Virus record (IMG/VR): IMGVR_UViG_3300043119_000901
Location: 1-31,300 of that record
Direction: 5' to 3' (one strand)
Origin: a virus
DNA length: 31,300 nt
This document shows positions 5,996-30,314 of the stretch, in pieces. Every line of letters starts with the position of its first letter. Position 1 is the first letter of the stretch. The position numbers were made by a program, and so were the translations under genes. Below the pieces are notes generated by a model. The model saw nothing but the letters and a program-made list of their open reading frames with translations. It made no database searches and was not told the DNA's origin.

Positions 5996-6022
5996 AGAAA
6001 AAAGACCTCCGAAGAAGTCTTT
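5996..6022 (-). terminator. Strong intrinsic terminator with UUCG tetraloop, upstream of terS
   Basis: Read on the minus strand, AAAGACTTC-TTCG-GAGGTCTTT is a 9-bp stem (one G-U pair) capped by a UUCG tetraloop and followed by six Ts (the A run at 5998-6003). This is a textbook rho-independent terminator. It lies between the DUF4314 gene and the terminase genes, and it separates the accessory block from the late head operon. Confidence 0.85.
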
Positions 6023-6043
6023 CACTTGGCTTAAATCTGTGTT

Positions 6044-6271
6044 TTAACCTTCTAGTTTTCTGCAGCTGTCCTCACCATATACCACACTAAGGCTACTGCC
6101 ATTGTCCCAGGAAACCATGATGCTTCCGATATCATCTACACCAATTACCGTTCCCTGGGTTCCCGTTGGTGGTGCTTGTATATCTTCCATTTGAATCAGT
6201 TCTACCCTTGTTCCGGGTGGGTACTCTTCTCTTAGTTTCTCTAGGATTTCTTTTCTAATAAACATCTTCAT
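6044..6271 (-). CDS. DUF4314 family small protein
   Basis: A 75-residue protein of the DUF4314 type, a small beta-rich fold common in Bacillota prophages. The recognisable core is YPPGTRVELIQMEDIQAPPTGTQGTVIGVDD followed by GSIMVSWDNGSSLSVVYGEDSC; the pattern of PPGT, GT-G-V and W-D-GS blocks suggests an SH3-like barrel. The function is unknown. The start is either 6271 or the in-frame ATG at 6265, which is better spaced from the GAGGGGG site. The beginning overlaps the end of the cyclotransferase-like gene by 17 nt in another frame, so the two are probably translated together. Confidence 0.8.
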   Translation of the reverse strand: MKMFIRKEILEKLREEYPPGTRVELIQMEDIQAPPTGTQGTVIGVDDIGSIMVSWDNGSSLSVVYGEDSCRKLEG

Positions 6272-6713
6272 CCCCCTCTACCGAAGAATCCTCCAGTGCT
6301 ATTTCTAAGATGGTCTTATCAAAGCCAAATCTCTCGTAGGCATCTTGAAGGGTTTTGTAGTAATGGTAGCTGGGCTGTCCTAGTTTCCTGTCTTGATCCA
6401 TCATGTAGAACATTCCTTGAACCTTTTCACCATCAAGGTCTAACTCCATCCACTCCTTGTAGTAGAAGGTTGGAAAGCCTTCATAACGATCAAGGTTATG
6501 TTCGTCTGTCGGTTCAATTTCCCAAAGCACCACCGGCACCTTTTGCCCTTCTTCTTTTTCAATGGTGGCATAAGCACCTGTCTTTGAGCCTTTGAAGATA
6601 AGCCTGTGATCTTCAATTACTGATACACCTCTTAGCTTTGCCCTAGGGCATCTGAAAGCCATTTGACTTTCATCCATGTTGCTCCCGTAGGCAATGTACA
6701 GTTTAGTTTTCAT
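6255..6713 (-). CDS. Gamma-glutamylcyclotransferase-like (AIG2/GGCT) protein
   Basis: A 152-residue member of the GGCT/AIG2-like fold. Family enzymes release 5-oxoproline from gamma-glutamyl amines or peptides. The substrate-loop motif YGSNM is at 9-13 and the catalytic acid is probably Glu78 in the LDRYEGFPTFYYKE segment, so the active site looks intact. The MAFRCPRAKL block and the Y-K-E-W strand are also typical. It lies immediately downstream of the amidoligase gene on the same strand. Comparative genomics of Amidoligase_2 enzymes links them with GGCT/AIG2 partners, one making and the other trimming amide bonds to glutamate-like groups. That pairing supports a joint role here, but the substrate is unknown. 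Confidence 0.87.
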   Translation of the reverse strand: MKTKLYIAYGSNMDESQMAFRCPRAKLRGVSVIEDHRLIFKGSKTGAYATIEKEEGQKVPVVLWEIEPTDEHNLDRYEGFPTFYYKEWMELDLDGEKVQGMFYMMDQDRKLGQPSYHYYKTLQDAYERFGFDKTILEIALEDSSVEGDEDVY

Positions 6714-6846
6714 TTCTTTCCATCCTTTCCTAAAGGGCCATTCTTCCCCGCCAGCTTGGCCTGTGTGGGCTTTTCAGCCGATTCGGGAACCCTCCTACCA
6801 CCTTAAGGGCGGTTCTCCCGCCCCGGTGAGCCTGTGGCTATTCATT
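6714..6846 (-). other. GC-rich intergenic stretch with hairpin and a start-less open frame
   Basis: This 133-nt gap is clearly richer in G+C than its surroundings. Minus strand: GGGCGG-GAGAA-CCGCCC forms a short hairpin at about 6808-6824, with no T run. After it, the frame 6802-6713 stays open for 30 codons and ends in a TGA that overlaps the ATG of the cyclotransferase-like gene (ATGA), but it has no ATG, GTG or TTG start. It reads as a polar, lysine-rich peptide containing VPESAEKPTQAKLAGKNG. It may be the tail of a decayed gene. I cannot assign a function. Confidence 0.35.
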
Positions 6847-7737
6847 TCATCCAGCTTGTCTCCATGCTGAGTTTCCATCAAGATACTTTAGAAAATGGAG
6901 CCTGCAGGTTTTAAACTCGTCCCCGATAAGCCCCAGCCTTAGCATCCAACATCTGAAGGCGTACTTCTCGTTGTCCGTCACCGTTTTTCTAGCTGATGCT
7001 TTCTTTTGACTTAAGGCTTGGTGGCTCACTGCCAGGCAAAACTGAATGTATGCTTTTACCTCTCCGGCATGGGTGGTGGCGTTGAAAAGTCTAAATTCTA
7101 CAGTGCCTTTGGTAAAAGTGGCGTGTAGGTTGAGTCCATAATATCGGGTGGCATTGTAATGCCTGTCTCTTCCGTAGGGATCCTCTGCATACCAAATGTC
7201 TGAAAGCTCTCTCATGGTCTTTGGCTTTTTCTTATTGATGGTTTCCAAAAGCTTCTCGTTGGTTTTCTTGCAATACCTAATTCTTCCTCGATCTATCTTA
7301 AGCGCCTTGTAAAGGATATCTTCCTTGCTGGCGATGATGTTGACAATGTTTCTTAAGGTTTGCGGTGTGAAGCGTTCTGCTCCAACATGTACATGTATTC
7401 CGCAGGAGTTATTTACAATTGCTCCCTTGTGTCTAAGCTGCCTAACCAGTTCCTGCAAATCCTCCATGTCCTCGTAGGTGAGGATGGGGCTGACCACTTC
7501 CGTTTTGTATTCATCTCCGGCTGAAACTCTGGTTCGTCCTTTTTTCTTTTGAGGAACAATGCTTGAGTCGTACATGGCTTTCCAGGTTCTCCCCTTGTTG
7601 TCCATGACCTCGTAGGTTCTGTAGCCACCTCCCGCATAGATGTTTCTGGTTCCAAAGTAGTCTGCAATGACCTGCCCTGCCTGCTCTCTTGTAATCCCTG
7701 TAACTTCGATTTCGATCCCGAAGGTTTGCGTTTTCAT
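6847..7737 (-). CDS. Amidoligase_2 family COOH-NH2 ligase
   Basis: A 296-residue ATP-dependent amidoligase of the glutamine-synthetase-like fold, predicted to join a carboxylate to an amine on a peptide or metabolite. Visible motifs are GIEIE at 7-11 (metal-binding acids of the first strand), TEVVSP at 79-84, CGIHVHVG at 112-119 (HxH), RYYGLNL at 198-204 and TVEFRLFN at 212-219. A C-terminal module (256-293, with NEKY, RLGL and AWR) is shared with the protein encoded at 8161-8940, and the two align through most of their length. The ATG has an AAAGGATGAGAG site upstream. A 12-bp-stem hairpin lies immediately before that. The cyclotransferase-like gene follows. Substrate unknown. Confidence 0.88.
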   Translation of the reverse strand: MKTQTFGIEIEVTGITREQAGQVIADYFGTRNIYAGGGYRTYEVMDNKGRTWKAMYDSSIVPQKKKGRTRVSAGDEYKTEVVSPILTYEDMEDLQELVRQLRHKGAIVNNSCGIHVHVGAERFTPQTLRNIVNIIASKEDILYKALKIDRGRIRYCKKTNEKLLETINKKKPKTMRELSDIWYAEDPYGRDRHYNATRYYGLNLHATFTKGTVEFRLFNATTHAGEVKAYIQFCLAVSHQALSQKKASARKTVTDNEKYAFRCWMLRLGLIGDEFKTCRLHFLKYLDGNSAWRQAG

Positions 7738-7755: not shown

Positions 7756-7810
7756 TTACCTGTGTTTTAAGCTTTTTGGTAGTACTATATATCACTCTAA
7801 ACACAGGTAA
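7756..7810 (-). promoter_or_regulatory. Structured leader hairpin before the amidoligase gene
   Basis: Minus strand: TTACCTGTGTTT, a 31-nt loop, then AAACACAGGTAA, a perfect 12-bp stem ending 18 nt before the amidoligase ATG. The loop begins AGAGTGATATATAGTACTAC and continues into CAAAAAG. The same loop core occurs in the hairpin at 8941-9000, where the stem sequence is entirely different. Conserved loop plus different but complementary stems points to a functional structure. There is no T run, so it is not a simple terminator. A promoter within the conserved loop segment is an alternative. Confidence 0.7.
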
Positions 7811-7847: not shown

Positions 7848-8171
7848 TCATTCTTCTAGTGCTGTATACCGGCACCAGGAGTAGCCCTCGCTATTAATGA
7901 GGACACGCTCACCGGTCGCAGTGTTGATAACCCGGATGCATCTGATTTCTCCGTTTTCATTGGATCCGCCATCGGACTTATTAATCCAAGGTTGCTCATT
8001 GAAGAAATCTTCTGCAAAGGCTTTGAAGTCATCACCATCCAAGGAGACTACTTTGATCACTTCATATAGGCTGCCTCGCTGTCCAGCTTGTTTGGCATGG
8101 GCTGTAGCTTCTTTAAGTTCTTTCAGGTCATTGAGCTTTCTGCCGAATAATGCCCTTGGTCTATTCGTCAT
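7848..8171 (-). CDS. Hypothetical protein, 107 residues, in the amidoligase cluster
   Basis: I do not recognise a named family. From the ATG at 8171 the product starts MTNRPRALFGRKLNDLKELKE, then has a helical, basic first third and an acidic middle (VSLDGDDFKAFAEDFFNEQPWI). The last third looks like beta hairpins (EIRCIRVINTATGERVLIN, EGYSWCRYTALEE). I prefer this start because it overlaps the stop of the upstream gene (ATGACGAATAG), which implies translational coupling. A longer frame to 8195 has no better ribosome-binding site. It lies between the degenerate amidoligase relative and the amidoligase hairpin, so it may work with them. Confidence 0.72.
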   Translation of the reverse strand: MTNRPRALFGRKLNDLKELKEATAHAKQAGQRGSLYEVIKVVSLDGDDFKAFAEDFFNEQPWINKSDGGSNENGEIRCIRVINTATGERVLINSEGYSWCRYTALEE

Positions 8172-8940
8172 GGCTTTCACCCGCTTTTCTTTCACGCAAT
8201 CTCGCCTTGTGCTTCTCGGCGTCAGCAGGGGTACGAAAGGCGGTGTGTCCTTTTAAGCCTTCAAGCAGGGCCTTTCTTGAGTCCTTTGCTCCTTTGCCTC
8301 CTAGGCCAAGTCTGACCAGCCATACCCGAAGGTAGTATTTTTCATTTTCAGGTTCGCTGGCTTTTGGGCTTATTCGCTTTGCCTCTCTTGCATGGGCCAC
8401 CATCATGGCAGCCAGTTCAACGTAGGCCCTGTTCTTCTCCGGCTTTTCTGAACCTGGGAAGGTGAAGGTTACCTTGTCCTCTTCAAAGCTGAGTCCTGAA
8501 ATGGCTTCAGCATTTTCACTGCATAGGTTAAGGAACTCTTCTTTGCTTTCAGGTAGATTCGTTTGCAGGGTATCAATAAATTCATCACTGATAGAAAATT
8601 GGCCTTTCCCCACCACTCGATTAAGCAGGTACTGTTTGCTTCTAAGCATGTAGATCAGATTTTGAAGATGGGGTCCTTCCATCTCCTCTAAAGGAACAGT
8701 AACCTCCAGACTTTCAAGCTCCTGTCTTGGTTCTGCAAATCCATTTTCTTCTAAATGTGTTCTCATCCTTTCACCATCCATTTCTGTTTCACTCACCACC
8801 GTTCCATCTCGTTCAATGGTGTAGCCTTCCACCTTGTATGCATAACTTGGTGGTCCTACATACTTAGGTTTCTGTCCTAAAAATTCACCGATACTTTTCA
8901 CCAGTTCTTTTCGATTTTCACATGTCGTTTCAATACGCAT
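8161..8940 (-). CDS. Degenerate amidoligase paralogue ('virulence-related protein' type)
   Basis: Proteins like this 259-residue product are often labelled virulence-related in clostridial prophages. By eye it aligns with the neighbouring amidoligase over most of its length. Residues 3-37 match amidoligase 10-44 without gaps (I-E, T, R, I, G, Y, G, Y, V conserved). EVTVP with LQNLIYMLRSK matches the TEVVSP and LQELVRQLRHK region. Residues 172-236 match 229-293 without gaps, with 18 of the last 38 identical (NEKY, RLGL, G, K, R, L, G-A-R). The HxH motif of the amidoligase is absent (VGKGQFSI stands in its place) and the first strand lacks the paired acids, so it is probably not an active ligase. 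AGGAGG precedes the ATG and lies inside a hairpin stem. Confidence 0.78.
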   Translation of the reverse strand: MRIETTCENRKELVKSIGEFLGQKPKYVGPPSYAYKVEGYTIERDGTVVSETEMDGERMRTHLEENGFAEPRQELESLEVTVPLEEMEGPHLQNLIYMLRSKQYLLNRVVGKGQFSISDEFIDTLQTNLPESKEEFLNLCSENAEAISGLSFEEDKVTFTFPGSEKPEKNRAYVELAAMMVAHAREAKRISPKASEPENEKYYLRVWLVRLGLGGKGAKDSRKALLEGLKGHTAFRTPADAEKHKARLRERKAGESHDE

Positions 8941-9000
8941 TGACTTATACCTCCTTTGTTTTGGGTACTACATACATCACTCTAAAGAGGATATAAGTCA
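8941..9000 (-). promoter_or_regulatory. Structured leader hairpin that buries the ribosome-binding site of the 8161-8940 gene
   Basis: Minus strand: the 17-nt arm TGACTTATATCCTCTTT pairs with AAAGGAGGTATAAGTCA, with one mismatch and two G-U pairs. It encloses a 26-nt loop beginning AGAGTGATGTATGTAGTAC and ending CCCAAAAC. The 3' arm contains the AGGAGG ribosome-binding site and abuts the ATG, so the folded form should block translation. The loop core matches the hairpin at 7756-7810. A TTGACT at the base could also act as a -35 box, so a DNA-level role is possible. Confidence 0.72.
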
Positions 9001-9649: not shown

Positions 9650-10903
9650 TTATTCTTCATCAGCTTCTATAGACTTTAAATCTTCATAGGAGATTTTCTC
9701 TCCATCTCTTATAAGAAAAACATCTGCGCTTGTTCCTGCATGGAGCACGAACCTTGATACAATGACATCCACAAATTTTTCATCAAGCTCTATCATGTAA
9801 CAAATCCTGTTTGTCTGATCACTACTGATGAGTGTACTGCCTGATCCACCAAAAGGATCCAAGACGATGCAATTGGCAAGGCTTGAATTCTTAATGGGAT
9901 AGGCTAACAGCTGCAATGGCTTCATTGTCGGATGGAGTTTTGATTTCGTTGGTCTGTCAAAATTCCAAATGGTTTTATGCTTTCGATCCCCATAAAACTT
10001 ATGGCTTGCTGTCGGCTTCCATCCATATAGAACAGGCTCATGAGCATAGAGATAATCTGATCTCCCTAGTACCGGAGCATTCTTCACCCAAATGCAGGTC
10101 TGGTGACAAAAGAAGCCAGCTTCCTTAAAAGCTGACCTAAAATTGACCGTCTCCCGGTCTGCGTGAAATACATAGATCGTACCGCCATCGACGAGATTCT
10201 CAAACATATTGGTATAGGCTTTTAAGAGAAACTCATAGAACTCTTTATCGCCCATATTGTCATTTTTGATTTTCCCAGCAGTGCCCTCATAGTCCACGTT
10301 ATAAGGCAAGTCCGTGAGGATCATATTAGCCTTCTTCCCATCCATGAGTTTTTCATAGTTTTCAGGAATCGTGCTATCTCCACAAACTAGACGGTGCTTT
10401 CCAAGTAACCAAAGATCTCCCTGTTTTGATATGGGTTCTTCCTTTAGAGCTTCATCCACATCAAAATCATCATCTTTGATTTCTTTGTCATGGACTTTAG
10501 AAAAAAGCTGCTCTATCTCAGGCGGCTCAAATCCAGTAAAATCTGTATTAAAATCGGCTGCTTGAATATCAACAAGTAGATCTGCTAGCATTTTTTCGTC
10601 CCACTCACCAGCAATTTTATTCAGTGCAATATTGAGCGCTTTAACCTTTGCATCGTCTTTAATCTCTAGAACTACACACTGCACTTCTGTGTGGCCAATA
10701 TCCTTAAGGACCGTTAGCCTTTGGTGTCCAGCAATCACCGTCATATCAAAGTTAACGATAATCGGTTCTACATAACCGAACTCCAATATTGAGTTCTTGA
10801 TTTTCTCGTATTCCTTATCTCCTGCTTTTAGCTTTTTCCTCGGGTTATATTCAGCCGGTTTCAAATCTTCTACCGGTATGGTTTGCCATTTCATATCACT
10901 CAT
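9650..10903 (-). CDS. ParB-like/N6- or N4-DNA methyltransferase fusion
   Basis: This 417-residue protein modifies phage or host DNA. Residues 5-110 are a ParB/sulfiredoxin-like domain (VEDLKPAEYNPRKK, then the VIAGHQRLTVLKDIG motif). From about 165 follows an amino-methyltransferase with the beta-class motif order: motif IV TDLPYNVDYEG comes before the SAM-binding motif I DPFGGSGST. HPTMKPLQLLAYPI is the usual block before motif I. DLPY in place of DPPY is common in this phage family. AAGGAGG lies 7 nt before the ATG, and the first codons overlap the stop of the upstream HTH gene by 8 nt. No restriction enzyme partner adjoins it, so it acts as an orphan methylase. The recognition sequence is unknown. 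Confidence 0.92.
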   Translation of the reverse strand: MSDMKWQTIPVEDLKPAEYNPRKKLKAGDKEYEKIKNSILEFGYVEPIIVNFDMTVIAGHQRLTVLKDIGHTEVQCVVLEIKDDAKVKALNIALNKIAGEWDEKMLADLLVDIQAADFNTDFTGFEPPEIEQLFSKVHDKEIKDDDFDVDEALKEEPISKQGDLWLLGKHRLVCGDSTIPENYEKLMDGKKANMILTDLPYNVDYEGTAGKIKNDNMGDKEFYEFLLKAYTNMFENLVDGGTIYVFHADRETVNFRSAFKEAGFFCHQTCIWVKNAPVLGRSDYLYAHEPVLYGWKPTASHKFYGDRKHKTIWNFDRPTKSKLHPTMKPLQLLAYPIKNSSLANCIVLDPFGGSGSTLISSDQTNRICYMIELDEKFVDVIVSRFVLHAGTSADVFLIRDGEKISYEDLKSIEADEE

Positions 10904-13683: not shown

Positions 13684-13950
13684 CTGATCAACCTCCTGTT
13701 CTTGTTGTTCTCAAATCTCTAAAAGCCCTATACGCGCGAATATACGTGTTTTACTGTATATAGGGCCTATTCTATCTATTTTTAAATTAATAATAGTTGT
13801 TAGGAATATAAGAACACACCATCTTCTAAGGCTTGCCGCCAGTGGGATTTGAGGTGTTCCGTAATTTGTTCCTAACCATTTATTAAGGAACATCCACTAC
13901 TCCGGAACATGTACCCAAAATCAACATTTTTAGGAACACTGCTAGGAACA
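13684..13950. repeat. Intergenic cluster of GGAAC/GTTCC repeats with inverted arms
   Basis: This gap after the primase-helicase gene holds six copies of GGAAC or GTTCC in about 100 bp. The 21-bp block TTAGGAACA-N6-GGAACA occurs at 13930-13950 and, inverted, at 13855-13875, differing only in the six central bases. Further copies are TTAAGGAACA (13883-13892) and CCGGAACA (13902-13909), with a weaker one near 13799. An 8-bp perfect inverted repeat, GCCCTATA/TATAGGGC (13725-13766), lies nearer the next gene. The block overlaps the last codons of the primase-helicase gene. Position and repeats suggest a replication origin or a regulator site. I saw no credible gene here. Confidence 0.55.
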
Positions 13951-16308
13951 GCTTTTAGGTACAAAGATATACTGTGGACCATAAAGCGTCGTTCGTTCTT
14001 TTTTATCCTGCCTTACCCAGCCAAGTTTCGTTAAAATTGCGGCCAGGGTATTGGAGTCTGCCCGGCCTAAGTTGGCCCTATCTTTCCCAAAGCACTCACA
14101 CCAGATTTCCATGTTGCAGACACTGCTGCGAGGAATCGTCCCCAATCTTGGAGCTGCGTTAAACTCATTTCCACTTAGGAAGTTTCTTCTCTCAAAAAGG
14201 TCCATCTTGTTCCAATCATCTGGGAGAAGTGTATCAAGGTATTCTCTGACTAAGCCTTCACGCTCATCGGACTCCATAGCTTCACGCTGTTCGGCCTTAG
14301 CCAGCTGCTCCATAGATGGATCCAGATATAGCTTTTCACCCGCTTTTACGTATACTAGGGCTTCAGCCCATATCTGCTGGATCTCTTCAGCGGTAATCTG
14401 CCAAGAATGTTTACTACCACCACCGGGAGTTTTCACAGGCCAGAAACGACGGTTTCCCGTAGTATCTCTTAGGTATCCGGACTCTGCGTTGGTGGTACCG
14501 AAGAAGATACACTGACGCTGGTGAGGGGTTGCGCGTTTTCCAAAAGCCGCACGATAGATATCATTTTGCCTTGAGAGAAAAGAACGCAGGGTTTCTACCT
14601 CAGCTTTTCTAAGACCTGCCAGCTCACCAATCTCAAGAATCCAGTAACCCTGAAGTTTCTCTGCTGCGGTTTTATCTTTGGTATCTCCAAGGTTTAAGCT
14701 GTCAGAGAACCATTCGCCAGCGAGCTTTGAGATCAATGTACTTTTACCAACTCCTTGAGGCCCATTTAATACGAGCATGGAGTCAAATTTGCACCCAGGG
14801 TTTTGCACTCGACTAATTGCAGCGCACAAGGTTTTTCTGGTAACGGCACGGACGTAAAGATTGTCATCAGCGCCGAGATAATCAATGAGTAAGGTATCTA
14901 CTCTTGGTATTTTGTCCCATTCCGGTAAAGAGTCCAGGTATTCTCGAATAGGATGGTAAGACCTGTCATCCGTGACTTTGGCTACAGCAATTTGATAGTT
15001 CCTCTGTGAAAAGGTCCCGTAGTTTGAGTCGATGTAGCTGATAAGCTGGGCATCATCTGCATCCCTCCAGTACTTTGAAGGATGGTTCCAAGGGACGCTG
15101 CCTTTGATCTCCATACCATCAAGCTGCTGATTAAATACCAATGCTTGTAGATTTGGATCATTCTGTAGAATGAGCGTGATGTTATGCAGATTGTTTTTAA
15201 GTACCGTGGAGCGGGACTCATATTCTAGTCTTTTCTGCCAATCGTTCTCTTCACCAAAATCCTCTAGCGCCCTAGCCTGCCTCTCCTGTAGAAGACGGAG
15301 TTTGACCTTTTCATCCTTTGAGGCAAACTCCATCATGGCCTTATAGGAAGGTAACTTAGATGAAGGCGTGTCTTCCGGACTTTTGTCATCAAGGTTTCTA
15401 AAATGGTGGATTCGGACTAAATCAAAAGCATTTAGCATCATCCCATATGCCGGATCAGTGGAGTGATGGGAGAAGGAAAACTTATCATCCTCTATCCACA
15501 CCCCTGCGGAAGAATCTGCTGGGATATAATCATAACGATCTGAGGCTGCACTTGGCTCATAGACCTCGGATAAAAAAGTCCCAATGGCTTCTCTTATGGT
15601 ATAGCTCCTGCAGAATGCTCCAATAAGACCAGACTTTGAGAGTGGATCTTGCTGTTTCTTCTTCTCCCTTTGCGCAGCGTCTGTTTGTCTTGATGAACCT
15701 GGCCATGAGGATATATCTTTCCAGTTATCGTATTTTGCCAATATGACATCTGGATCTAGAAATGGTCCTTTCATCTCTTCAAAGACATATTCTCCATCAC
15801 TGGAAGTGCTCGGCCAGTACATAAACTGGCTTGGCTTGAAGGAAGCTTCGTCAAAGTACTCCATACCAATTTCAAAAGCAACCATCCTGCTAATGGCTTG
15901 ATATTCATCAGCTGAAACCGGTCTAGAAAAAGGAGCCACCGTTCTTAGCCTTGGTTTCTCAGATGCATGGCTATGGGTGGAATGAGTGCAAGAAGCATAT
16001 TTGAAGTTTAGTTTAATGTCAGCTATATATTCATCTGCTGATTTTGCATAGTCCACATCAAGAGATAGCATCGTTTTTGATTCGATATTTTCATTCAAAC
16101 GACGCCCATCTTTTAACTCTGCTGCAATATAGCCGCCCACATCTTTGATGTTATCCTGCTGCTTTTTCTTCATGTGGCGGAATTCATCCTGAGTCTCTCT
16201 TGTATAAGTGGTAAGGGAGAGTTTTTTTACAAACTCATCCCATGTCACAGTTTGTTTTTTCCAGTACTTGTCATGTCTGGTGTTGCCGGTGGATATAATA
16301 AACTTCAT
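13942..16308 (-). CDS. Phage primase-helicase: prim-pol-like N-terminus and VapE helicase domain
   Basis: This 788-residue protein is the likely replication initiator. The N-terminal third resembles an archaeo-eukaryotic-type primase-polymerase: SLDVDYA at 82-88 (two metal-binding Asp) followed by the histidine-rich SCTHSTHSHASEKPRLR block. A linker leads to the virulence-associated-E helicase, with Walker A GPQGVGKST at 516-524, Walker B WILEIGEL near 556-563 and the sensor-like IFFGTTNAESGYLRDTTGNRRFWP, a hallmark of the family. The ATG at 16308 follows AAAGGAGG by 6 nt. An open extension upstream to 16452 overlaps the next gene and is not used. No VRR-NUC or SNF2 gene follows, although these often accompany it. 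Confidence 0.93.
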   Translation of the reverse strand: MKFIISTGNTRHDKYWKKQTVTWDEFVKKLSLTTYTRETQDEFRHMKKKQQDNIKDVGGYIAAELKDGRRLNENIESKTMLSLDVDYAKSADEYIADIKLNFKYASCTHSTHSHASEKPRLRTVAPFSRPVSADEYQAISRMVAFEIGMEYFDEASFKPSQFMYWPSTSSDGEYVFEEMKGPFLDPDVILAKYDNWKDISSWPGSSRQTDAAQREKKKQQDPLSKSGLIGAFCRSYTIREAIGTFLSEVYEPSAASDRYDYIPADSSAGVWIEDDKFSFSHHSTDPAYGMMLNAFDLVRIHHFRNLDDKSPEDTPSSKLPSYKAMMEFASKDEKVKLRLLQERQARALEDFGEENDWQKRLEYESRSTVLKNNLHNITLILQNDPNLQALVFNQQLDGMEIKGSVPWNHPSKYWRDADDAQLISYIDSNYGTFSQRNYQIAVAKVTDDRSYHPIREYLDSLPEWDKIPRVDTLLIDYLGADDNLYVRAVTRKTLCAAISRVQNPGCKFDSMLVLNGPQGVGKSTLISKLAGEWFSDSLNLGDTKDKTAAEKLQGYWILEIGELAGLRKAEVETLRSFLSRQNDIYRAAFGKRATPHQRQCIFFGTTNAESGYLRDTTGNRRFWPVKTPGGGSKHSWQITAEEIQQIWAEALVYVKAGEKLYLDPSMEQLAKAEQREAMESDEREGLVREYLDTLLPDDWNKMDLFERRNFLSGNEFNAAPRLGTIPRSSVCNMEIWCECFGKDRANLGRADSNTLAAILTKLGWVRQDKKERTTLYGPQYIFVPKSCS

Positions 16309-16339
16309 GATGACCTCCTTTCTGGTGATATGTAACCAC

Positions 16340-16585
16340 CTAGTTTTCCATCCAGGGTTCAGTCGTAACCACCACTTCATCAGATGCATAGCTAACAAGG
16401 TTAGTGTATTCACAAAGATTGAAGATGTACTCTGTATCACATCCTGCATCATTTATTGCGGCTATAACCGCTTCTTTGACTTCTTTGTCATCACTGAAGG
16501 CTAAAAGCTTTAGCTGCTCTAAGATCCTTCCAACAACCACCTCTTCACCATAAGTTTCAAATAATTCTTTTAAAGATTTGTTCAT
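16340..16585 (-). CDS. Small acidic phage protein, unknown function
   Basis: An 81-residue helical, strongly acidic protein (LKELFETYGEEVVVGRILEQLKLL, then DDKEVKEAVIAAINDAG). I do not recognise the family. AGGAGG lies 8 nt before the ATG. It is the first gene after the 60-bp repeat array and immediately precedes the primase-helicase gene, so it belongs to the early operon. Acidic proteins in this position may interact with DNA-binding partners or host factors, but nothing here proves it. Confidence 0.75.
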   Translation of the reverse strand: MNKSLKELFETYGEEVVVGRILEQLKLLAFSDDKEVKEAVIAAINDAGCDTEYIFNLCEYTNLVSYASDEVVVTTEPWMEN

Positions 16586-16621
16586 GACATGTTCCTCCTT
16601 TGGGTTTTTAATTTTTAGCCT

Positions 16622-16817
16622 CTATATATAGGTCACGAGAAAGGAAAAATCGGGGCCCTTTTTCAAAAATATTTTTGCCCCTATATATAGGTCACGAGAG
16701 TGTGAAAATTCCCCCCCTTTTTAGAGAGAATTTTTAATCCTTATATATAGGCCACGGGAGAGTAAATGGTAAACCCCCTTTTTTAAAAAAATGGTCCCAA
16801 TATATAGGCCACGAGAG
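16622..16817. repeat. Four tandem ~60-bp iteron-like repeats
   Basis: A 20-bp motif with consensus TATATATAGGYCACGRGAG occurs four times in the same direction, starting at 16622, 16681, 16741 and 16798 (periods 59, 60 and 57). Each copy is followed by a run of five or more C residues (cccc/ggggccc in the first unit), a T run and an A/T-rich palindromic stretch, so the whole ~60-bp unit is repeated with a diverged middle. In copy 2 the motif contains the palindrome CCTATATATAGG. The array fills the gap 16586-16903 between the Cro-like gene and the small acidic gene. Candidates are replication iterons or operators of an early promoter. No other gene is visible in this gap. Confidence 0.85.
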
Positions 16818-16903
16818 TGTGAAAAGTTGCCCCCCTGACTTAAGAAATCTCTCACTTATTAACCAACAGAACTGATATCTTGGTAATCATATTTTTAACC
16901 CAC

Positions 16904-17792: not shown

Positions 17793-19931
17793 TTACTCAA
17801 CACCAAGAGCTTTAAAGACTGCATCTTCTGGTGTCTGATAAAAAATCAGATTGAATTTACCCATGAGCTCCGGTGGAACAGACGACATGTCCGCAGCTGA
17901 CGTAATTGGCAATAATACTTTTTTAGCGCCACTATCTAGACAAACCTGAAGAACATTGGCCAGCTCTTCAACTTTTATAATACTTCCACTAATACTTAAG
18001 TTTCCTAGAATTGCAAGGCTGCTGATCACCGGCTTGTGTAGTGCAGCTGAACATAGGCCCACAAATGCAGTTAAAGACAGCTGATTGGTGATACCTATTC
18101 CGTTTAAATCCTGAAGATGCATTAAATAGTCCTTTGTTGAGGTGCTGATGGTACCACTAACATTTTTGCTATTGGCTTTTAGATACCTATAAGCTGTATC
18201 TATAGATTCTTTTGCTTCCCTGTCAGACCCAATTCCTGTGCGCTCAAACTTACCAGATCCAGAAACCATTTCTGTTTCCAGTTTGAATACGCCAAGCATG
18301 CCAGATTTCCCTCGACTTACAGTATATACCTGTCCTGGCTTATGAAGTCCTTCAGGAATCAGTTTGCCACCGCCTTGCTCGGGTACAGGAACAAATTCTT
18401 CTGTGAAATCTTTATTATCGATATAGGAGAAATTCACATCATAAAACTCCATGCCACCAATTTTCTTCAACTGCTCTTTGACACGTCTGCGGCTTTCCAG
18501 TGCAAATCTGAGTATTTCCTCAATATCTTCTTTGTTGAACTTTCCATTTGGATAAATCAACTTTATAAGTCCCGATACCATTTTTCTTACGGCAATCACA
18601 TCACGTTGATTTAGGTTGTTTCCTAGTTTGAAATACTGATCCAGCGCATCCGCATAGGAAGTCTTTCTCAACTCTCTCAGAAACTCCGCCAGATAGTCAG
18701 TGATAAACCCATACTGGTTTGTGAAAAAATCGGGTCTGTATTTGGGTATCTCCCATCCTGGTAGATAGCAATGCATCCTATCAAAAAATGCACTGTCATA
18801 GGCCATTGCTTCAGGGAATGGATCAAACAAGTGAGACGTTTTAAGCAGTACATCCACACTTTGATTGATATTTCCCACAAAAACCATGGACGCCGAAGCA
18901 TTTTTTTCTTCTTTGCCTCTGGAAAACGATCCGGATGCCATATAATCCTTCATGATCTGTATGCCATCTTTATCTTTAAAGGTAATCCCTGCTACTTCAT
19001 CAAAAGCGACACAATCCCACATACCAACAAGACCTACGGTCTTATTAGACATGTTATAGAAAAGATTCGCCACAGTGGTTTGGCCACCGGAGACCAAAAT
19101 GCTATTTGGAGAGATTTCCTTATATACATGAGATTTTCCAGTACCACGAGGCCCTAGCTCACATAGGTTGAAGTTGTTTTCTACAAGTGGTATCATTCTA
19201 GCTAGTAATAGTAGCTTTACTCTGAGCGAGAATTTAATCGGCTCCATCCCTATGGATCGAAGGATGATATCGATCCATTCATCTTTGGTAAACTGCTCTC
19301 TACCACCTAAAACCTCACCCATATCTAGATTTGGCATTTGAATAGGAGTAAGTTTCGTAATGATGAAGGGAATTCTACTTTTATCTGCTTCATCATAGAA
19401 ATATTCCAGCTGAACAATACACCAGATGCCTCCACTAAGAAGACGTTCAAAATCTGATGCATATTTCTCTGAAATAGGTATATTTTTGATTCCTAGGTTA
19501 GAGAATTCCGCCTCATAGATATCATGTCGATAATTTAGTTTGACAGAAATCTTATCAATAACTGTATAACTACCACGTTCTCTTAATTTAGAGATAATCT
19601 TCTGTGCTTCATCAGGGCGAACGAAGTTTTCAGCTAGGATGCTTTTGACATTGCTTACCCCTTCAGCTATAGCTTCCTCCTCCGTTGTTGCACAGTACAT
19701 CCCTAGGAGATACTCCAGAACATATACAGGTACATTAGCCCCTTCTTTGATCTTCTTCGTCAAATCTTTCCGTACTATCTTTCCTGCAAAGACGTCATTC
19801 AGCTTGTCATTGAGATAGTTATCAGAAATAAATATTTCTTCAGCAGCATCCTTACCGGTATCCTTGATGTCAAAATCATCTTCAAATTCTTCTATTTCAA
19901 TTTCATCATGGTTTGATTCTCTTTCATCCAC
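17793..19931 (-). CDS. brxL: BrxL, AAA+ Lon-like effector of type 1 BREX
   Basis: A 712-residue BREX protein. Residues 38-205 are the conserved N-terminal region (LNDVFAGKIVRKDLTKKIKEG, PVYVLEYLLGMYCAT). The AAA+ core carries Walker A GPRGTGKS (260-267), Walker B VAFDE (308-312) and sensor FVGNIN (351-356). The C-terminal 120 or so residues are Lon-protease-like (GITNQLSLTAFVGLCSAALHKP, SSLAILGNLSISGSIIKVEELANVLQVC), but the catalytic Lys position is Ala, consistent with BrxL acting on DNA rather than as a protease. An unusual acidic tail (16 D/E in the first 32 residues) precedes the core. The GTG start follows AAGGAGGGG. Last gene of the operon, 14 nt after pglZ. Confidence 0.95.
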   Translation of the reverse strand: MDERESNHDEIEIEEFEDDFDIKDTGKDAAEEIFISDNYLNDKLNDVFAGKIVRKDLTKKIKEGANVPVYVLEYLLGMYCATTEEEAIAEGVSNVKSILAENFVRPDEAQKIISKLRERGSYTVIDKISVKLNYRHDIYEAEFSNLGIKNIPISEKYASDFERLLSGGIWCIVQLEYFYDEADKSRIPFIITKLTPIQMPNLDMGEVLGGREQFTKDEWIDIILRSIGMEPIKFSLRVKLLLLARMIPLVENNFNLCELGPRGTGKSHVYKEISPNSILVSGGQTTVANLFYNMSNKTVGLVGMWDCVAFDEVAGITFKDKDGIQIMKDYMASGSFSRGKEEKNASASMVFVGNINQSVDVLLKTSHLFDPFPEAMAYDSAFFDRMHCYLPGWEIPKYRPDFFTNQYGFITDYLAEFLRELRKTSYADALDQYFKLGNNLNQRDVIAVRKMVSGLIKLIYPNGKFNKEDIEEILRFALESRRRVKEQLKKIGGMEFYDVNFSYIDNKDFTEEFVPVPEQGGGKLIPEGLHKPGQVYTVSRGKSGMLGVFKLETEMVSGSGKFERTGIGSDREAKESIDTAYRYLKANSKNVSGTISTSTKDYLMHLQDLNGIGITNQLSLTAFVGLCSAALHKPVISSLAILGNLSISGSIIKVEELANVLQVCLDSGAKKVLLPITSAADMSSVPPELMGKFNLIFYQTPEDAVFKALGVE

Positions 19932-19945
19932 CTATTCACCCCTCC

Positions 19946-22468
19946 TTATAAGCCGAAGCCAAAATCATCCGCAAAGGCAATATCCATCACCACGTCATGA
20001 CGTAAAACTTCAACATCATTTTTTTCATCATATGCTACTAAGTAGTATCGCTTGGATTTATCATACTGTTTGTTCTTAAAATTGAACTTTAATCTGAAAA
20101 TTCTCTTACTAGGATCATTATCCTTTTTGTCTGCAATATAGATACATTCGTTAGATATTTTTTCATTGTCTTCTGATATGAAGAAGATATTGTAGCTAGT
20201 TTCTTTGACTACATCACTCACTGCTTCAGACTGAATAAAGTCTAGTGAAGAGATTAGGTTTGTAATCTTTTGAACCATACTCACCAACATAATTTGTGCT
20301 GGTCTTGTATCTGCATGGCCTTTTTCAACTTTTACATCGATAACTGGAATAATCATTTCCTGAGGTGAAGATCCACCATGAACGAAGTTCTGCCCGCCAC
20401 CAGATACTTTAAATACATTAAAACTTATCGGCACAGATACCATTTTGGAATCATTATTCCCCAAGATTTCACCCATGGATAGTGAAATGACCCCATCATC
20501 CTCTAGTGCTTCTTCTGAAACAATAAACCTTCTATTTACAAAGGAATCTTTATCTGCAAGATGAATGATTTTATCTCTTTCCTGTAGCTTATCCCGTTTA
20601 TAAATAAAACCATGATCTGCTGTTACGATAAAATGGTAGGTATTGGCGCTCACTGATAGACGTTTAATCAAAGTAAAGACTTCTTCCACAGCTTCACTGC
20701 AGGCAGTGAATACTTCATTTTCAGTGTTTAGTTTATCCCCTCTTGCATCAATCTGGTTATGGTAAATATAAACTACATCCATACCTGTAAAAACTTCTCT
20801 AAGCTCAGCTTTTTTCATAAGCTTAACATCATCAAATTGAATGCTTCTGCTTTTTTGTGCATTAGAATTTAATATAGCCTCTCGCTGTTTAAGAGAGTCA
20901 CAAGGCATTCCATCCACTAGTACCTTGCTATCCTCCGTTAGTTCAAGGGTTCTATGAGGTAGTAAAGCTCCCATACCAAGTCTGGTATAAGAAGGCAAAA
21001 CACCCATGATAGCTTCAAGCTTTGGAGCACATTTCTCGTCATTCTGTAGCTTTGTGAAAAGAGATTGTCCAACTTCATAGCGCATAGCATCTGAAATGAT
21101 TACTACAACACGGTCTTTGCTAGGCTGAACATATTTGCTATAAAAGTTCCTCTGAAGAGGTAAAACAGATTTCATATCCCCTTTTTTCAGAGCATTATTC
21201 CAACTGTATACGCTTTTTGCCAGGTACTCATTGGTATAGATGTTTTCAACTAGATCTCTTAACTTTTCAAAAAATGCAGCCTCACTTAACTGATCGTAGT
21301 TTAAATAAAATTTTCTGTATTGGCTATCGATCTTGTAATCAGATGTTATATACTGATTGACAATATCCTTTAATCCCTCTTTGATTTGATAATTGACAGC
21401 CAATATCACATAATAGGCACTTTCTAGTAAATGATACTCCGTCCGGTATTTCTCTCTAAAATGCTTTTTACGTCGATCTTTACAGATTTCAGGAATGGTT
21501 AAGTTATTTAGCTTTGCTCCTACATCTTCACTAACAAGTCGATCATTTATCCAGCCAATTATAATTTGATCCACTACCTCAAAGGTATCACAATTTGATA
21601 AGGCTTCCGGGTTGTAGCTCTCTAATGCCGATTTAGCATTAAGGATTTTTGCAACATAAGATGATAACTCATCATATCGCCCCCTGTATAAAACATTATT
21701 CATTAGATCATCAAGGAAAGCGATAATATTACCAGATTTATATGAAACAAAGCTCTTCCATGGCGAAGGTACCTCGCCTTGAATATATCTCTGTGTATAG
21801 GTCACAAACATGGTAATGACAAGTTTTTCTAGTGTAGGCTTTACATCGGTATAGCCAAACTGTTCTTCACATAAACGCCAAAAGGCCTCCAAGAGATCAT
21901 ACTTCTTAAACTCATCTAGAAATTTATTATCTTCCAGTTTATCCTCTGTCAGAACAACACGCACAACTTCATCAAAGAAAGATACTCTTGTTTTACATAG
22001 CACGCTCATCAAGGCTACTTCAATACTTTCTTTAGTGAAATTCTCCAGCTCTAGATCATAAAACTTCTGCGTTCGATCTTTAGCGCCAAAGAACTTAATA
22101 TATTTCTGTATAACAGGTTTGTATTTCTGATCGATTCCCAGGTCCACAGTCAGCAGTGATGCCCGATCAGCGAAGAACTGTTTGGAATAGAGTAGCATAT
22201 CCTCCAGATGGTTATCTCTTACCTGTGGGCGTGGGAATGGTGCATAAATAAGATAGTTTGTTTCTGTATCTTTCCTCTCAAGAAAATATTTGGTATGAAA
22301 CTGATTGTCCTTTTCCAAATGATATATCTTAGCATTAATAATCTCCAAAGAATCAATGTCCTGTTCAAATTCTGCCTTATCATCGTACCAAAACACTAGC
22401 TTGCGAGTTTCCCCAGTGAACTCTTTATTGAGCTTGTCGGTTATCTGCTTTAAATTTAATTCTGCCAT
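19946..22468 (-). CDS. pglZ: PglZ, BREX type 1 alkaline-phosphatase-fold protein
   Basis: This protein, about 840 residues long, has the alkaline-phosphatase core in its second half: VVVIISDAMRYE (metal-binding Asp461 in the numbering of the longest frame), PSYTRLGMGALLP with the candidate nucleophile, YHNQIDARGD (His571, Asp575) and VTADHGFIY (Asp619, His620). The N-terminal 440 residues are alpha-helical, as in PglZ type A. All metal-site residues I can identify are present. PglZ is required for BREX exclusion and host methylation and is thought to bind PglX. ATG at 22468, one codon inside a possible GTG, with GGGAGGG upstream. Gap to pglX 18 nt. Confidence 0.96.
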   Translation of the reverse strand: MAELNLKQITDKLNKEFTGETRKLVFWYDDKAEFEQDIDSLEIINAKIYHLEKDNQFHTKYFLERKDTETNYLIYAPFPRPQVRDNHLEDMLLYSKQFFADRASLLTVDLGIDQKYKPVIQKYIKFFGAKDRTQKFYDLELENFTKESIEVALMSVLCKTRVSFFDEVVRVVLTEDKLEDNKFLDEFKKYDLLEAFWRLCEEQFGYTDVKPTLEKLVITMFVTYTQRYIQGEVPSPWKSFVSYKSGNIIAFLDDLMNNVLYRGRYDELSSYVAKILNAKSALESYNPEALSNCDTFEVVDQIIIGWINDRLVSEDVGAKLNNLTIPEICKDRRKKHFREKYRTEYHLLESAYYVILAVNYQIKEGLKDIVNQYITSDYKIDSQYRKFYLNYDQLSEAAFFEKLRDLVENIYTNEYLAKSVYSWNNALKKGDMKSVLPLQRNFYSKYVQPSKDRVVVIISDAMRYEVGQSLFTKLQNDEKCAPKLEAIMGVLPSYTRLGMGALLPHRTLELTEDSKVLVDGMPCDSLKQREAILNSNAQKSRSIQFDDVKLMKKAELREVFTGMDVVYIYHNQIDARGDKLNTENEVFTACSEAVEEVFTLIKRLSVSANTYHFIVTADHGFIYKRDKLQERDKIIHLADKDSFVNRRFIVSEEALEDDGVISLSMGEILGNNDSKMVSVPISFNVFKVSGGGQNFVHGGSSPQEMIIPVIDVKVEKGHADTRPAQIMLVSMVQKITNLISSLDFIQSEAVSDVVKETSYNIFFISEDNEKISNECIYIADKKDNDPSKRIFRLKFNFKNKQYDKSKRYYLVAYDEKNDVEVLRHDVVMDIAFADDFGFGL

Positions 22469-22486
22469 CACACACCCTCCCTTCTT

Positions 22487-25400
22487 CTAAATTTTAGCCA
22501 GTACATCTAACTTCTTGCCCTCTGTATCCGTTTGAACTTTTTCATAATTAACCTTTACACCATCATCCAGATCAATAGGAGTACGAGCTAATGCAAGATG
22601 GGCAATCTTCTCGTCATACTCTTTTGTCTCTTTTAGCTGCTTTGTCAGTTTCTCTTTTCTCTTTGTCGCTGCAGTCACTTCTCGAGCATTATTGCTGTTT
22701 TCAATGGTCTCCTGCATCCTTGTTATCTCATTTTCGTAAATACGCTGCATCTTATGCAGGTAATCAATGCGCAGGTTACCTATGGTGTTTTCATCGTATC
22801 GGTGCATATATATTAATGCCTTAAAACCATTCTGCTTGCCGCTGTCAAACAGCCAATAGATAGGTCGCTTTCCTGATCCAGTGACAGAATAAGTACTGTA
22901 ATGATCCTTGAAAAAGTCTTTCAGAAAATAATTTCTTATTGTCTCACGAGAGCTATTCCCCTTGTTCCCTAAAGCCTCAGCTATAAAGTCAAGATTCTCC
23001 TCCAAGTTTTCTTCGCCATAAACTTTTTTAACAAATGCTGCAAATAGGCCAACAATATCATCTTTAAAATATTCTTCATCAGTAATTGGAAGGATGTTAT
23101 CTTTATCAGGAATGAAAGTGTTATATTTGCTACTATCCCATTCCCCACCTGCAAAGGCTAATCCATCTACATCAAGACTATAACGGCCAAACATACATCC
23201 AACAGCGTAGGAAATAAAACCTTTAATCAGATCTTGCTTTGTGAGGATGAATTTACTTCCCTTCATTCTTGACATAACATCTTCTCTTGAATCAAATATT
23301 CTATGCACTGTTACATCTTTATCTTCGACTTCTGAAGTCAATTCATTTTGCAAGCCATAGATTCCGATGAAAATGCGGTTAAGTTCTTCTTCTTTATCTT
23401 TAAGCTGGATGAACCTATTATTACACTCAGTTTCCCATATGGAACATGCTTCTGAGACTGTAGAAACAGAGCGAATGAGCGGATGTTGGATGAAATTCCA
23501 TGAGGTTTCAAAAGAATCCCAATCTTGTTTCGATAGATGAATGCATGTTTTCACATATTCATTTATACTGCTCTCTTGACCTGGATCATATATCACCGGA
23601 AATCGCCCTACTTGCCCGACTTCAAATTTTAACGCCGGTGCTATTACTTCAAGGAATGCTTTTGAAACTTTGGAATTAAACATTCCCATTAAATATTGAG
23701 TGTCAATGCTACCACTATACACACATGGACCAGAAGCATTAGAAATATATTGATCTGACTGGTATCTAAAAGCAATATCAGTAGATGCCGTGTCATTCCA
23801 AGAAATAGATTCATGGAAATAATATCGAGTATTTCTTAGTACAGAACGTAGTTTTCCATTTTCGTCCTTGAAATTTCTTAATTCTGATCCGTTGTGCTCC
23901 CAATTGATTATATATTCATTATTCCCATACCATTTTCTGAAATTCCCACCTTTTGTCATTGGGAACCATTTCGCCTCTGAGCTAAAAACCGAAAACTTAT
24001 CAGCCGCAACTTCAAACCATAATCTTACAAAACGTTCATTATCTCCAGTAGTCAATCCCTTTCTTGGAGCTGCCACAGCTTCAAGCATTGGCGAAGTTGC
24101 AAGTATATTTAAGACTCTACTTGAAATCCAATATGCGTAAATGTACTCTGCAACAAATGCAAATTGACTCTGTTTTATATAATATTGATTGCGTATATCA
24201 ACGAACATTCTTTCTTTTTCTCTTTCTGTATCATATTGAATTAGTCTAAGAAAGGTACTTGTGTAATTACTTATAGTTTGAGGCATCAAGACAAAAGCCG
24301 TTGTCTGGACAATTTCTCCCTGTATTTCGTCAAATGCATTAGCTCCAAGGTGTGCCATGTTTATTAACTGCCAACGCAGTAATTTTTCTCTAAATTTAGT
24401 GTATGTAGTTTTATACATCCAAACATGTTGGGTAATCATCGCCTGATAGCCAGTTTCCTTAGCCATTTGACCACACCGTTCAATAAAAATTGCAAACAAA
24501 TCCGCTTTGCTATCGGGATAGTTTTTCTGCACATAATTCGACAATTTTGCACCCATGCCCTTACTACCCAAATACGGAGGATTCGTCACGACCACATCAT
24601 ACTTCTGAGCCATGCTCTGCCCGATCCTGAGAAGAAGTTTCAGTTGCTGCTTCGTCAATTCCAATCCAATGGAATCCAAAGACATCTGCCCATCTTCACT
24701 TGTTATCTCCACAAAACGGCTCACCAACTCCCAATTACACGGTTCTACCTTCAAAATAGAACCATATTCTTTGGCATCCACAAAGGTGTCTAGCAATCCA
24801 GTGATCTGGTTCATAGCATCATTCTTTTCTAGTTCGCTTAATCCAGCACCAAAGTATTTGAGCTGGTTGCGGTTGACAGTACTGCTCTCCTGGATGGAAT
24901 AAATATGACAGGTAGTTTGTCCGTTAAGAATTCTACGGTTGTACTGTCTTGCTTTCATCATCACCGCAAAATAGGCAAGCTGGTAGGCTCTATTATCGAT
25001 ATCTAAGCCATACAGATTGTTATCAACTATACTTTTAGCGGCATCCCTCTGGCTGTATCCACAGCTTTCATATATTTGCATCAGAACATCAAATGCGTAC
25101 ACCAAAATATGGCCACTACCCATTGCTGGATCTATGACCTTGATCTCTTCAGGTTTGATGGTCTTGTATTCTTCTCTAATACTTTCTAACTGTTTTTTAA
25201 CATCCTCATCTTGCTCGGCTTCATCTAGATAATACTTCCAATTAGACTTCAGCTCATCATTGGGATGACCCTCCATCCACAATCGTCCCAAGCTGTTCTC
25301 AACCATATACCGAACAATCCAGTCTGGAGTAAAGAGCTGTGTTGCTGCAGGTATCCGCTCTTTGGTAATTTTAACATTTTTCTTGAGCAGAGCAAAAGTT

Positions 25401-26128
25401 TCATCCTTAGGTTCCGTATTATAATACTGATACAACCAGCCTATGATTTCAACTTGACCTTCTTTGGATACATTAAAATCATCTTCTGAGATATCGTTGA
25501 CCAAGTGATAAACCACCCCATCTTTATCTGTAAAAGAAACATTTAGAAGGAGTTCAGTATAATCACTGGTTTTCTCAAAGAGATCTGGCAAATTAACATT
25601 TAATGCATTGCACTGCTTGATAAAAAGCATTCTAAATAATTCATTCAGCTTGTTCTCATGTTTTAACTGCATGATTCGGTCTTTTTCAAAAGCTGAATAA
25701 TTTAAGTCTACGTCCAATGCATGGGTTACAATATCTGGTTCCGATTTCCCCCTACTTTCAGAAGAAAGCACCCTTACTCGCGTTGGTAGATAGTCATTCA
25801 CTTCCATAAAACGAATAGCAATCAGACGATTGAACCAGGTATAGGCTACTTCCTCGATAACATTTTTATATGCTGTAGAATAATCACCCTGACTGGCTTT
25901 TAGCTGAATTTCTTCTACCAGTTTCTTTCGCTGTTCGATTTCAGTGCTTGCAATAGAGTTCGGCTCTTTGGTTCCAATATCAAAAAACTGAACCGTTTGT
26001 GTTGACTGTGGTAATGGATTCTTGATTTCTTTTTCAGTAATGCCCAAAAGTCCAGCTTTATAGGTTATATCTGCTATGAGCTTATTTCTAGCCCATATAG
26101 CAAAATTCTTAATCGCAGTTTTATTCAT
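22487..26128 (-). CDS. pglX: PglX, BREX adenine-specific DNA methyltransferase
   Basis: A 1213-residue N6-adenine methyltransferase that marks host DNA at a short non-palindromic site so BREX can discriminate self from phage. The N-terminal helical region (1-260) leads to the FTPDWIVRYMVENSLGRLW block. SAM motif I is VIDPAMGSGHIL (331-342), followed by NNLYGLDIDNRAYQLA, and the catalytic motif IV is VVTNPPYLG (513-521). The C-terminal half holds the target-recognition region (GLTTGDNERFVRLWFEV, then the PCVYSG and GQVGRFPV segments) and a terminal coiled coil. The gene is full length with no stop or frameshift. GAGGGGG precedes the ATG. Which site it methylates cannot be read from sequence. 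Confidence 0.97.
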   Translation of the reverse strand: MNKTAIKNFAIWARNKLIADITYKAGLLGITEKEIKNPLPQSTQTVQFFDIGTKEPNSIASTEIEQRKKLVEEIQLKASQGDYSTAYKNVIEEVAYTWFNRLIAIRFMEVNDYLPTRVRVLSSESRGKSEPDIVTHALDVDLNYSAFEKDRIMQLKHENKLNELFRMLFIKQCNALNVNLPDLFEKTSDYTELLLNVSFTDKDGVVYHLVNDISEDDFNVSKEGQVEIIGWLYQYYNTEPKDETFALLKKNVKITKERIPAATQLFTPDWIVRYMVENSLGRLWMEGHPNDELKSNWKYYLDEAEQDEDVKKQLESIREEYKTIKPEEIKVIDPAMGSGHILVYAFDVLMQIYESCGYSQRDAAKSIVDNNLYGLDIDNRAYQLAYFAVMMKARQYNRRILNGQTTCHIYSIQESSTVNRNQLKYFGAGLSELEKNDAMNQITGLLDTFVDAKEYGSILKVEPCNWELVSRFVEITSEDGQMSLDSIGLELTKQQLKLLLRIGQSMAQKYDVVVTNPPYLGSKGMGAKLSNYVQKNYPDSKADLFAIFIERCGQMAKETGYQAMITQHVWMYKTTYTKFREKLLRWQLINMAHLGANAFDEIQGEIVQTTAFVLMPQTISNYTSTFLRLIQYDTEREKERMFVDIRNQYYIKQSQFAFVAEYIYAYWISSRVLNILATSPMLEAVAAPRKGLTTGDNERFVRLWFEVAADKFSVFSSEAKWFPMTKGGNFRKWYGNNEYIINWEHNGSELRNFKDENGKLRSVLRNTRYYFHESISWNDTASTDIAFRYQSDQYISNASGPCVYSGSIDTQYLMGMFNSKVSKAFLEVIAPALKFEVGQVGRFPVIYDPGQESSINEYVKTCIHLSKQDWDSFETSWNFIQHPLIRSVSTVSEACSIWETECNNRFIQLKDKEEELNRIFIGIYGLQNELTSEVEDKDVTVHRIFDSREDVMSRMKGSKFILTKQDLIKGFISYAVGCMFGRYSLDVDGLAFAGGEWDSSKYNTFIPDKDNILPITDEEYFKDDIVGLFAAFVKKVYGEENLEENLDFIAEALGNKGNSSRETIRNYFLKDFFKDHYSTYSVTGSGKRPIYWLFDSGKQNGFKALIYMHRYDENTIGNLRIDYLHKMQRIYENEITRMQETIENSNNAREVTAATKRKEKLTKQLKETKEYDEKIAHLALARTPIDLDDGVKVNYEKVQTDTEGKKLDVLAKI

Positions 26129-26140
26129 GGTTTTCCCCCT

Positions 26141-29722: not shown

Positions 29723-29735
29723 ATCTTATCCCCCT

Positions 29736-30314
29736 CTAATCTACTAGCTTAAAAGCTCTGTAGTAATTATCATCTTTTATGGTTGAAAAAAGGACCAATT
29801 CTTGTCCATCATATTTTCCAGGATAGAAAAGCACTACCGGCACTCTGTCTATCGCTTGATGGAGATTATTAAGTATCTTATGTGATCTTAGTATCGGATA
29901 ACATTTACCTATCCCTATCAGAAAGACTACTGCATCCTTCGGTGTGTTTTCTTGTATATGTTTTACAATCATGCTGGCTTCATCATTAACTTGTAATAGA
30001 TTTCCTACAGCTTTGATGATTCGTTCCAGACCCTTTCTCTTTTCAAATTTAAAGCATTGGTCCATGAATCCCTCTGATTCTAGAATATCAATTACAATAT
30101 CATATAAATCAAAGACAACCAGCTCAAAGCCATCTGAACCTTTTAAATTTTTACCCTTCATATAATCAATTCGTTCCCTGACAATCAACTCTTTCTCAGC
30201 AGGATAATCAAAAACATAGTACCCTACTTCATTTCCCAATCCTTTGTTCTGTCTAAAACTCTCACTCTTTATCAGACGCTCAGCAACATCCAGCCTTTCT
30301 TCTAAACTGGCCAT
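29736..30314 (-). CDS. brxB: BrxB, DUF1788 family BREX component
   Basis: A 192-residue DUF1788 protein. Landmarks are the LDVAERLIKSESFRQNKGLGNEV region, VGYYVFDYPAEKE, ELVVFDLYDIVIDILE, DAVVFLIGIGKCYPILRSHKILNNLH and RVPVVLFYPGKYDG. These form the usual Rossmann-like pattern. BrxB is essential for type 1 BREX defence, with an undefined biochemical role. The ATG directly follows the brxA TAG with no gap, and GGGGGTGAG in the brxA end serves as ribosome-binding site, so translation is coupled. Confidence 0.94.
   Translation of the reverse strand: MASLEERLDVAERLIKSESFRQNKGLGNEVGYYVFDYPAEKELIVRERIDYMKGKNLKGSDGFELVVFDLYDIVIDILESEGFMDQCFKFEKRKGLERIIKAVGNLLQVNDEASMIVKHIQENTPKDAVVFLIGIGKCYPILRSHKILNNLHQAIDRVPVVLFYPGKYDGQELVLFSTIKDDNYYRAFKLVD

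Follow-up and report, generated by a model that had tools for sequence, protein, structure and literature searches.

A virus of Clostridium-type bacteria carries an amidoligase gene and a gamma-glutamyl cyclotransferase (GGCT) gene as an accessory module, which recurs at various sites in genomes and in mobile elements unrelated to one another. We give about even chances to a reading in which the two enzymes act in sequence, the ligase forming a gamma-glutamyl amide and the GGCT then trimming it as 5-oxoproline, probably in the late lytic phase. The pair had been described in an earlier note made from the sequence of the window, by which we mean the whole 31.3 kb virus record fragment analysed here. 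The features on which the argument rests were as follows:

13942-16452, minus strand: VapE-like helicase
9650-10903, minus strand: ParB-methyltransferase
8968-8986, minus strand: promoter-like element before the dead amidoligase relative, TTTAGAGTGATGTATGTAG
8161-8940, minus strand: catalytically dead amidoligase relative, the 'virulence-related protein' of Streptococcus phages (hhalign, motif loss, AF2)
7848-8195, minus strand: small ORF (PHROG 21303) between the two amidoligase-type genes
7783-7801, minus strand: promoter-like element before the amidoligase, TTTAGAGTGATATATAGTA
6847-7737, minus strand: amidoligase (Amidoligase_2, GS-like fold; PF12224, PHROG 2443, motif residues, AF2 model)
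6255-6713, minus strand: GGCT/GGACT (AIG2-like) gamma-glutamyl cyclotransferase (PF06094, PHROG 2520, human GGCT profile match)
6044-6271, minus strand: DUF4314 small protein (PF14192, E = 3.3e-33)
6000-6023, minus strand: terminator-like hairpin 3' of DUF4314 and 5' of the terminase small subunit gene (pattern scan only)

Along the minus strand, the genes run from a BREX set through the VapE-like helicase, regulators and HNH genes to the ParB-methyltransferase, the cassette (dead relative, small ORF, amidoligase, GGCT and DUF4314, in that order) and the terminase. Genes for the terminase small and large subunits, portal, protease and major capsid protein follow downstream of the cassette on the same strand, which bears out the phage setting that had been proposed for the pair. 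Homologous terminase, portal, protease and capsid genes are present in Heliusvirales phages such as NatCom_2932, which carry the cassette at the same place, and the window holds four of the nine Ca. Heliusviridae core genes (terminase large subunit, portal, protease and capsid), with none of the remaining five among the annotated ORFs of the 31.3 kb fragment. The window phage is Heliusvirales-like. Several core replication genes of Ca. Heliusviridae are missing from the fragment, where BREX is carried instead, and the core-gene list published for Ca. Heliusviridae/Heliusvirales in 2022 (PMC9226167) does not contain the amidoligase-GGCT pair. In a pattern scan, terminator-like hairpins in the region were no more numerous than in shuffled sequences.

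Several other features of the window and its relatives were observed. The BREX genes form a complete type 1 set (BrxA, BrxB, BrxC, PglX, PglZ and BrxL; 17793-30917, minus strand) that adjoins phage repressor-like and VapE-like genes; a 95% identical BrxL lies in the same place in a related virus record, L211 (from the same contig as L004), and both this record and that of the window end within or near the BREX genes. Four tandem imperfect repeats of 53-59 nt with a TATATATAGGYCACGRGA core (16613-16847), situated between the VapE-like gene and a small repressor-like gene, are possibly operators or origin iterons. At one locus (L045:6428-8299), the ORF of the terminase large subunit is longer by a few hundred residues, and this insertion resembles an intein that has an endonuclease domain.

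The amidoligase ORF (296 aa) matched PF12224 over residues 3-237 (E = 4.4e-75; 253 bits against a curated Pfam cut-off of 22, covering profile positions 2-244 of 245) as well as PHROG 2443 (E = 1.6e-104), and continues beyond the Pfam domain into a helical C-terminal domain of about 50 residues. The ExE, HxH and ExR residues expected of a GS-like fold are conserved, as all 30 homologues compared have E80, H115, H117, E214 and R216, and nearly all have E9 and E11. Since searching the PDB chains by sequence with the amidoligase profile returned no relative, the fold was taken from a predicted AF2 model (pLDDT 92.8), for which, as for the other AF2 model reported here, the alignment was built from the window and IMG/VR loci only. 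Foldseek matched the model to YbdK, glutamine synthetase, GmaS, plant GCL (glutamate-cysteine ligase) and Dop with best E values from 1e-4 to 2e-2 (about 1e-4 for YbdK and glutamine synthetase); probabilities were near 1, but TM-scores to these GS-fold proteins were only about 0.33-0.45. The families of these matched proteins use ATP with glutamate-type carboxylates as substrates. In another locus (L085:4168-9135), the amidoligase gene is interrupted by about 3.9 kb of DNA with three recombinase-like genes on the opposite strand.

The GGCT ORF (152 aa) matched PF06094 (GGACT; E = 3.8e-14, 53.7 bits against a Pfam cut-off of 22.8) and PHROG 2520 (E = 5.8e-46), with the YGSN loop (Y9-N12) and E78 invariant in 37 homologues. 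Human GGCT was the closest match to its profile (1.4e-16), and in the profile alignment E78 falls on the catalytic Glu of the human enzyme, which is E in the 2pn7 sequence and Q in that of 3cry. Some members of the GGCT superfamily act on other substrates. Both genes of the pair are under purifying selection, with dN/dS of about 0.02-0.13 for amidoligase and GGCT alike in all computable comparisons with relatives. The earlier note had called both enzymes intact, citing the YGSN loop and Glu78 of the GGCT; the Pfam matches and conserved motif residues substantiate this for each at its place on the minus strand, although the note did not mention the diverged relative (8161-8940) and DUF4314 (6044-6271) of the same cassette.

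The gene at 8161-8940 is grouped with the amidoligase by PHROG 2443, and in sequence comparisons it is a full-length amidoligase homologue that has no catalytic residues. Aligned by hhalign, the two proteins matched with a probability of 99.9% over their full length, and also when the N-terminal part (98.8%, E = 7e-17) or the C-terminal part (99.7%) was used alone, while column-shuffled controls stayed below 0.5%. When 58 homologues of the relative were placed on the amidoligase profile, E9, E11, E80, H115 and H117 were gapped or replaced, and neither E214 nor R216 was conserved. Its AF2 model (pLDDT 89.6) gave no significant Foldseek match in the PDB, the top hits being chance. Of 28 methyltransferase-terminase spans, retrieved by a DNA pattern and not by the ligase, 22 had the dead relative but not the ligase pair, and the relative is also carried by Streptococcus phages, where it is annotated as a 'virulence-related protein'. 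These occurrences mark it as a backbone gene, next to which the pair was inserted. The dead relative and the amidoligase have a conserved C-terminal domain in common, which also occurs as a stand-alone small protein in the cassettes of relatives, and the ligase keeps this domain in loci without the dead relative. We considered the dead relative as an obligate partner of the ligase and rejected this, both because of the 22 ligase-free spans and because the ligase occurs in loci where the dead relative was not found (L170, L186 and L199).

Within the cassette, then, a backbone pair (dead relative and DUF4314) stands beside the accessory pair. The DUF4314 gene overlaps the GGCT gene by 17 nt in the window, and in 12 loci from two phage lineages (L028-L030, L035-L040, L042, L054 and L072) the two form a single reading frame, which suggests that their products work together. 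Of 87 loci, 14 had the small ORF of PHROG 21303, and most of these were close relatives.

In the window, 133 nt separate the amidoligase and GGCT genes. A GGCT gene was found on the same strand in 67 of the 76 IMG/VR viral loci with room downstream (median gap 96 nt) and adjoined the amidoligase in 47 of 53 loci from bacterial genomes (median gap 106 nt); these loci are related rather than independent, so the counts overstate the number of events. A lack of conservation of this neighbourhood in other phages had been named as what would refute the proposal, and the opposite was found. The bacterial-genome loci came from Clostridia, Negativicutes, an Oceanobacillus and Synergistaceae, with Alkaliphilus transvaalensis as the nearest named host (93% amidoligase identity). 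The pair stays together 3' of the dead relative, before it (L106, L121 and L122), before the methyltransferase (L056 and L083) or inverted (L091), and also in loci where the core genes of the window phage were not found and where an integrase and resolvase, a reverse transcriptase and tail genes, or a restriction system lie nearby. One copy, in a Clostridium sp. genome (L170:9986-15965), lies near type I restriction-modification genes, and the window phage's core genes were not found there.

The distance matrices of the amidoligase, GGCT and dead relative agreed with one another more than with those of the terminase or methyltransferase, and the partial distance correlation between amidoligase and GGCT, with TerL and the methyltransferase removed, was 0.61 (0 of 500 permutations). 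Between L004 and L006, dS was 0.15 for the pair and 1.36 for the neighbouring dead relative. The amidoligase was found without GGCT in 9 of the 76 viral and 6 of the 53 genomic loci, for example in the Acidaminococcus set, whereas among the matches listed GGCT without amidoligase was limited to phage G and one edge fragment. The amidoligase had served as the query for most of the loci, and this favours such an asymmetry; however, a GGCT search of INPHARED and the DNA-element search are free of this bias and both agree with it. Of 43 INPHARED records that matched GGCT, 40 were also among the amidoligase matches listed, the other three being two records of phage G and a 4.4 kb fragment that has GGCT at its edge. 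That the ligase occurs without GGCT and the reverse hardly occurs is consistent with GGCT acting on what the ligase makes and being dispensable at times.

A promoter-like DNA element of about 18 bases, with the consensus TTTAGAGTGATRTATNTA and also designated by TTTAGAGTGATRTAT, precedes both amidoligase-type genes. It was matched 135 times in total, compared to 0-11 times for a shuffled consensus, with 49 matches at 49-111 nt before amidoligase genes, 45 at 43-71 nt before dead-relative genes, 7 before DUF4314 and 20 in the terminase region; no match had an upstream methyltransferase or HNH gene as its nearest downstream gene. Most copies have a TTGCTA-like box upstream, so that a promoter is the simplest reading of the element. 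A general scan for sigma-70 promoters gave fewer sites than in shuffled sequences and missed the shared element, and when the window and seven relatives were scanned with Rfam, no family was placed at it. Since the element is common to the pair and to the terminase region of relatives, the pair is probably made in the late lytic programme together with late genes, and from this arrangement of sites we infer co-regulation with the terminase. The window copies stand only before the dead relative and the amidoligase, with none directly before the terminase; the element also occurs in Streptococcus phages without the ligase pair (L088 and L092), and it may be an ordinary constitutive promoter.

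Taken as a sequential pair, the amidoligase would activate a carboxylate with ATP, the likeliest candidate being the gamma-carboxylate of glutamate, and would join it to an amine, after which the GGCT would remove the gamma-glutamyl group from the ligase product as 5-oxoproline, thereby trimming or reversing the modification. We infer the gamma-glutamyl chemistry and the order of the steps from the enzyme families. The GS-fold matches, the human GGCT profile, the adjacency of the genes and their integrity across elements, the distance correlation, the contrast in dS, the presence-absence asymmetry and the shared element argue for this reading, while the low TM-scores, the diversity of GGCT superfamily substrates, the possibility of a constitutive promoter and the lack of a window element directly before the terminase argue against it. 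The predicted fold and active-site residues fit the family role of making and trimming amide bonds that had been suggested for these enzymes, and the caution that their substrate is not established agrees with the papers on such pairs examined here. Among the targets that the note had suggested (a host protein, a phage structural protein or a metabolite used against host defences), the sequence evidence favours none over the others.

Other uses of the same chemistry were weighed against this. According to later papers that cite Iyer et al. 2009, phage amidoligases were predicted to modify the surface against superinfection in phiEco32, and these papers repeat the prediction for the same gene set. 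A peptide-type modification added to or trimmed from the host cell wall or surface, keeping other phages out, would benefit temperate phages; however, no gene next to the pair in the window was identified as having a secretion or envelope function, the element found also at the terminase region of relatives suggests expression in the lytic and not the lysogenic state, and the relatives examined have none of the ATP-grasp and glutamine amidotransferase genes of LUZ24-type pairs, so that we consider superinfection exclusion unlikely. Protein modification, in which the ligase would act like a Pup ligase and link glutamate or a small acid to a phage or host protein, at lysines or at a carboxylate, with GGCT as the eraser, is also unlikely: Dop, a depupylase, is among the Foldseek matches, and the C-terminal domain that recurs in the dead relative and the stand-alone small protein could be a docking module, but no candidate for a tag protein was identified and the domain is kept where the dead relative is missing. 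The domain and the late promoter-like element in common also invite a reading, which we regard as decidedly doubtful, in which the dead relative is a pseudoenzyme that assists the active ligase and the pair modifies a packaging-stage complex of the phage or a molecule bound to it.

Similar enzymes in Phage-ZRK32, a phage said to promote host growth, were proposed to supply the host's amino acid or glutathione-type nitrogen metabolism, but that set included a glutathione synthase and a glutamine amidotransferase, neither of which is among the annotated ORFs of the window, and such a role is very unlikely here. The opposed predicted chemistry and tight adjacency of the two genes, and the type I restriction system that adjoins one copy of the pair (L170), would suit a harmful conjugate made by the ligase and undone by GGCT. 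In such an arrangement the antidote should not be the part that is lost, yet the presumed toxin persists without GGCT in several lineages and GGCT hardly occurs alone. A PADLOC scan of four cassette proteins matched no defence family, so no known defence family is present in the cassette. With the asymmetry between ligase and GGCT weighing most, we judged a toxin-antidote role highly improbable.

The same two Pfam families occur in the genomes of LUZ24-like phages and of Arthrobacter cluster AL phages; in Arthrobacter phage Salgado the amidoligase and GGCT genes are neighbours, and PF06094 was confirmed there. The window pair differs from these in its surroundings, as it stands beside the dead relative and DUF4314 and without the ATP-grasp and glutamine amidotransferase genes that are also present in LUZ24-like UFV-P2 or the glutamine amidotransferase-type gene of Salgado. 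Closer precedents are Tn6164 of Clostridium difficile (PMC3485107; 2012), which has the same order of methyltransferase, virulence-related/amidoligase-like gene, amidoligase, GGCT and terminase, and the Terrisporobacter prophage TPDSL_ph1 (PMC11253131; 2024) and C. clostridioforme LM41 prophages 13-alpha and 13-epsilon (PMC11318856; 2024), in which two PHROG-2443 genes are followed by a PHROG-2520 gene. The pair is therefore not new: the earlier note was right that it is real, but did not mention these reports. New relative to them are the recognition of the relative as catalytically dead, the DNA element that the genes share, the fusion of GGCT with DUF4314 and the mobility of the pair.

Two of these three reports name both PHROG-2443 genes amidoligases, whereas the first gene has no catalytic residues here; this loss in the 'second amidoligase' corrects a repeated annotation error. 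Discussion of amidoligase-GGCT pairs in phages goes back to 2009. The version in the window is small, in that neither an ATP-grasp nor a glutamine amidotransferase partner was seen next to it, and is common in gut Firmicutes phages and their hosts. With its defined neighbours and shared control element, it offers a tractable way to find out what such enzymes modify for phages.
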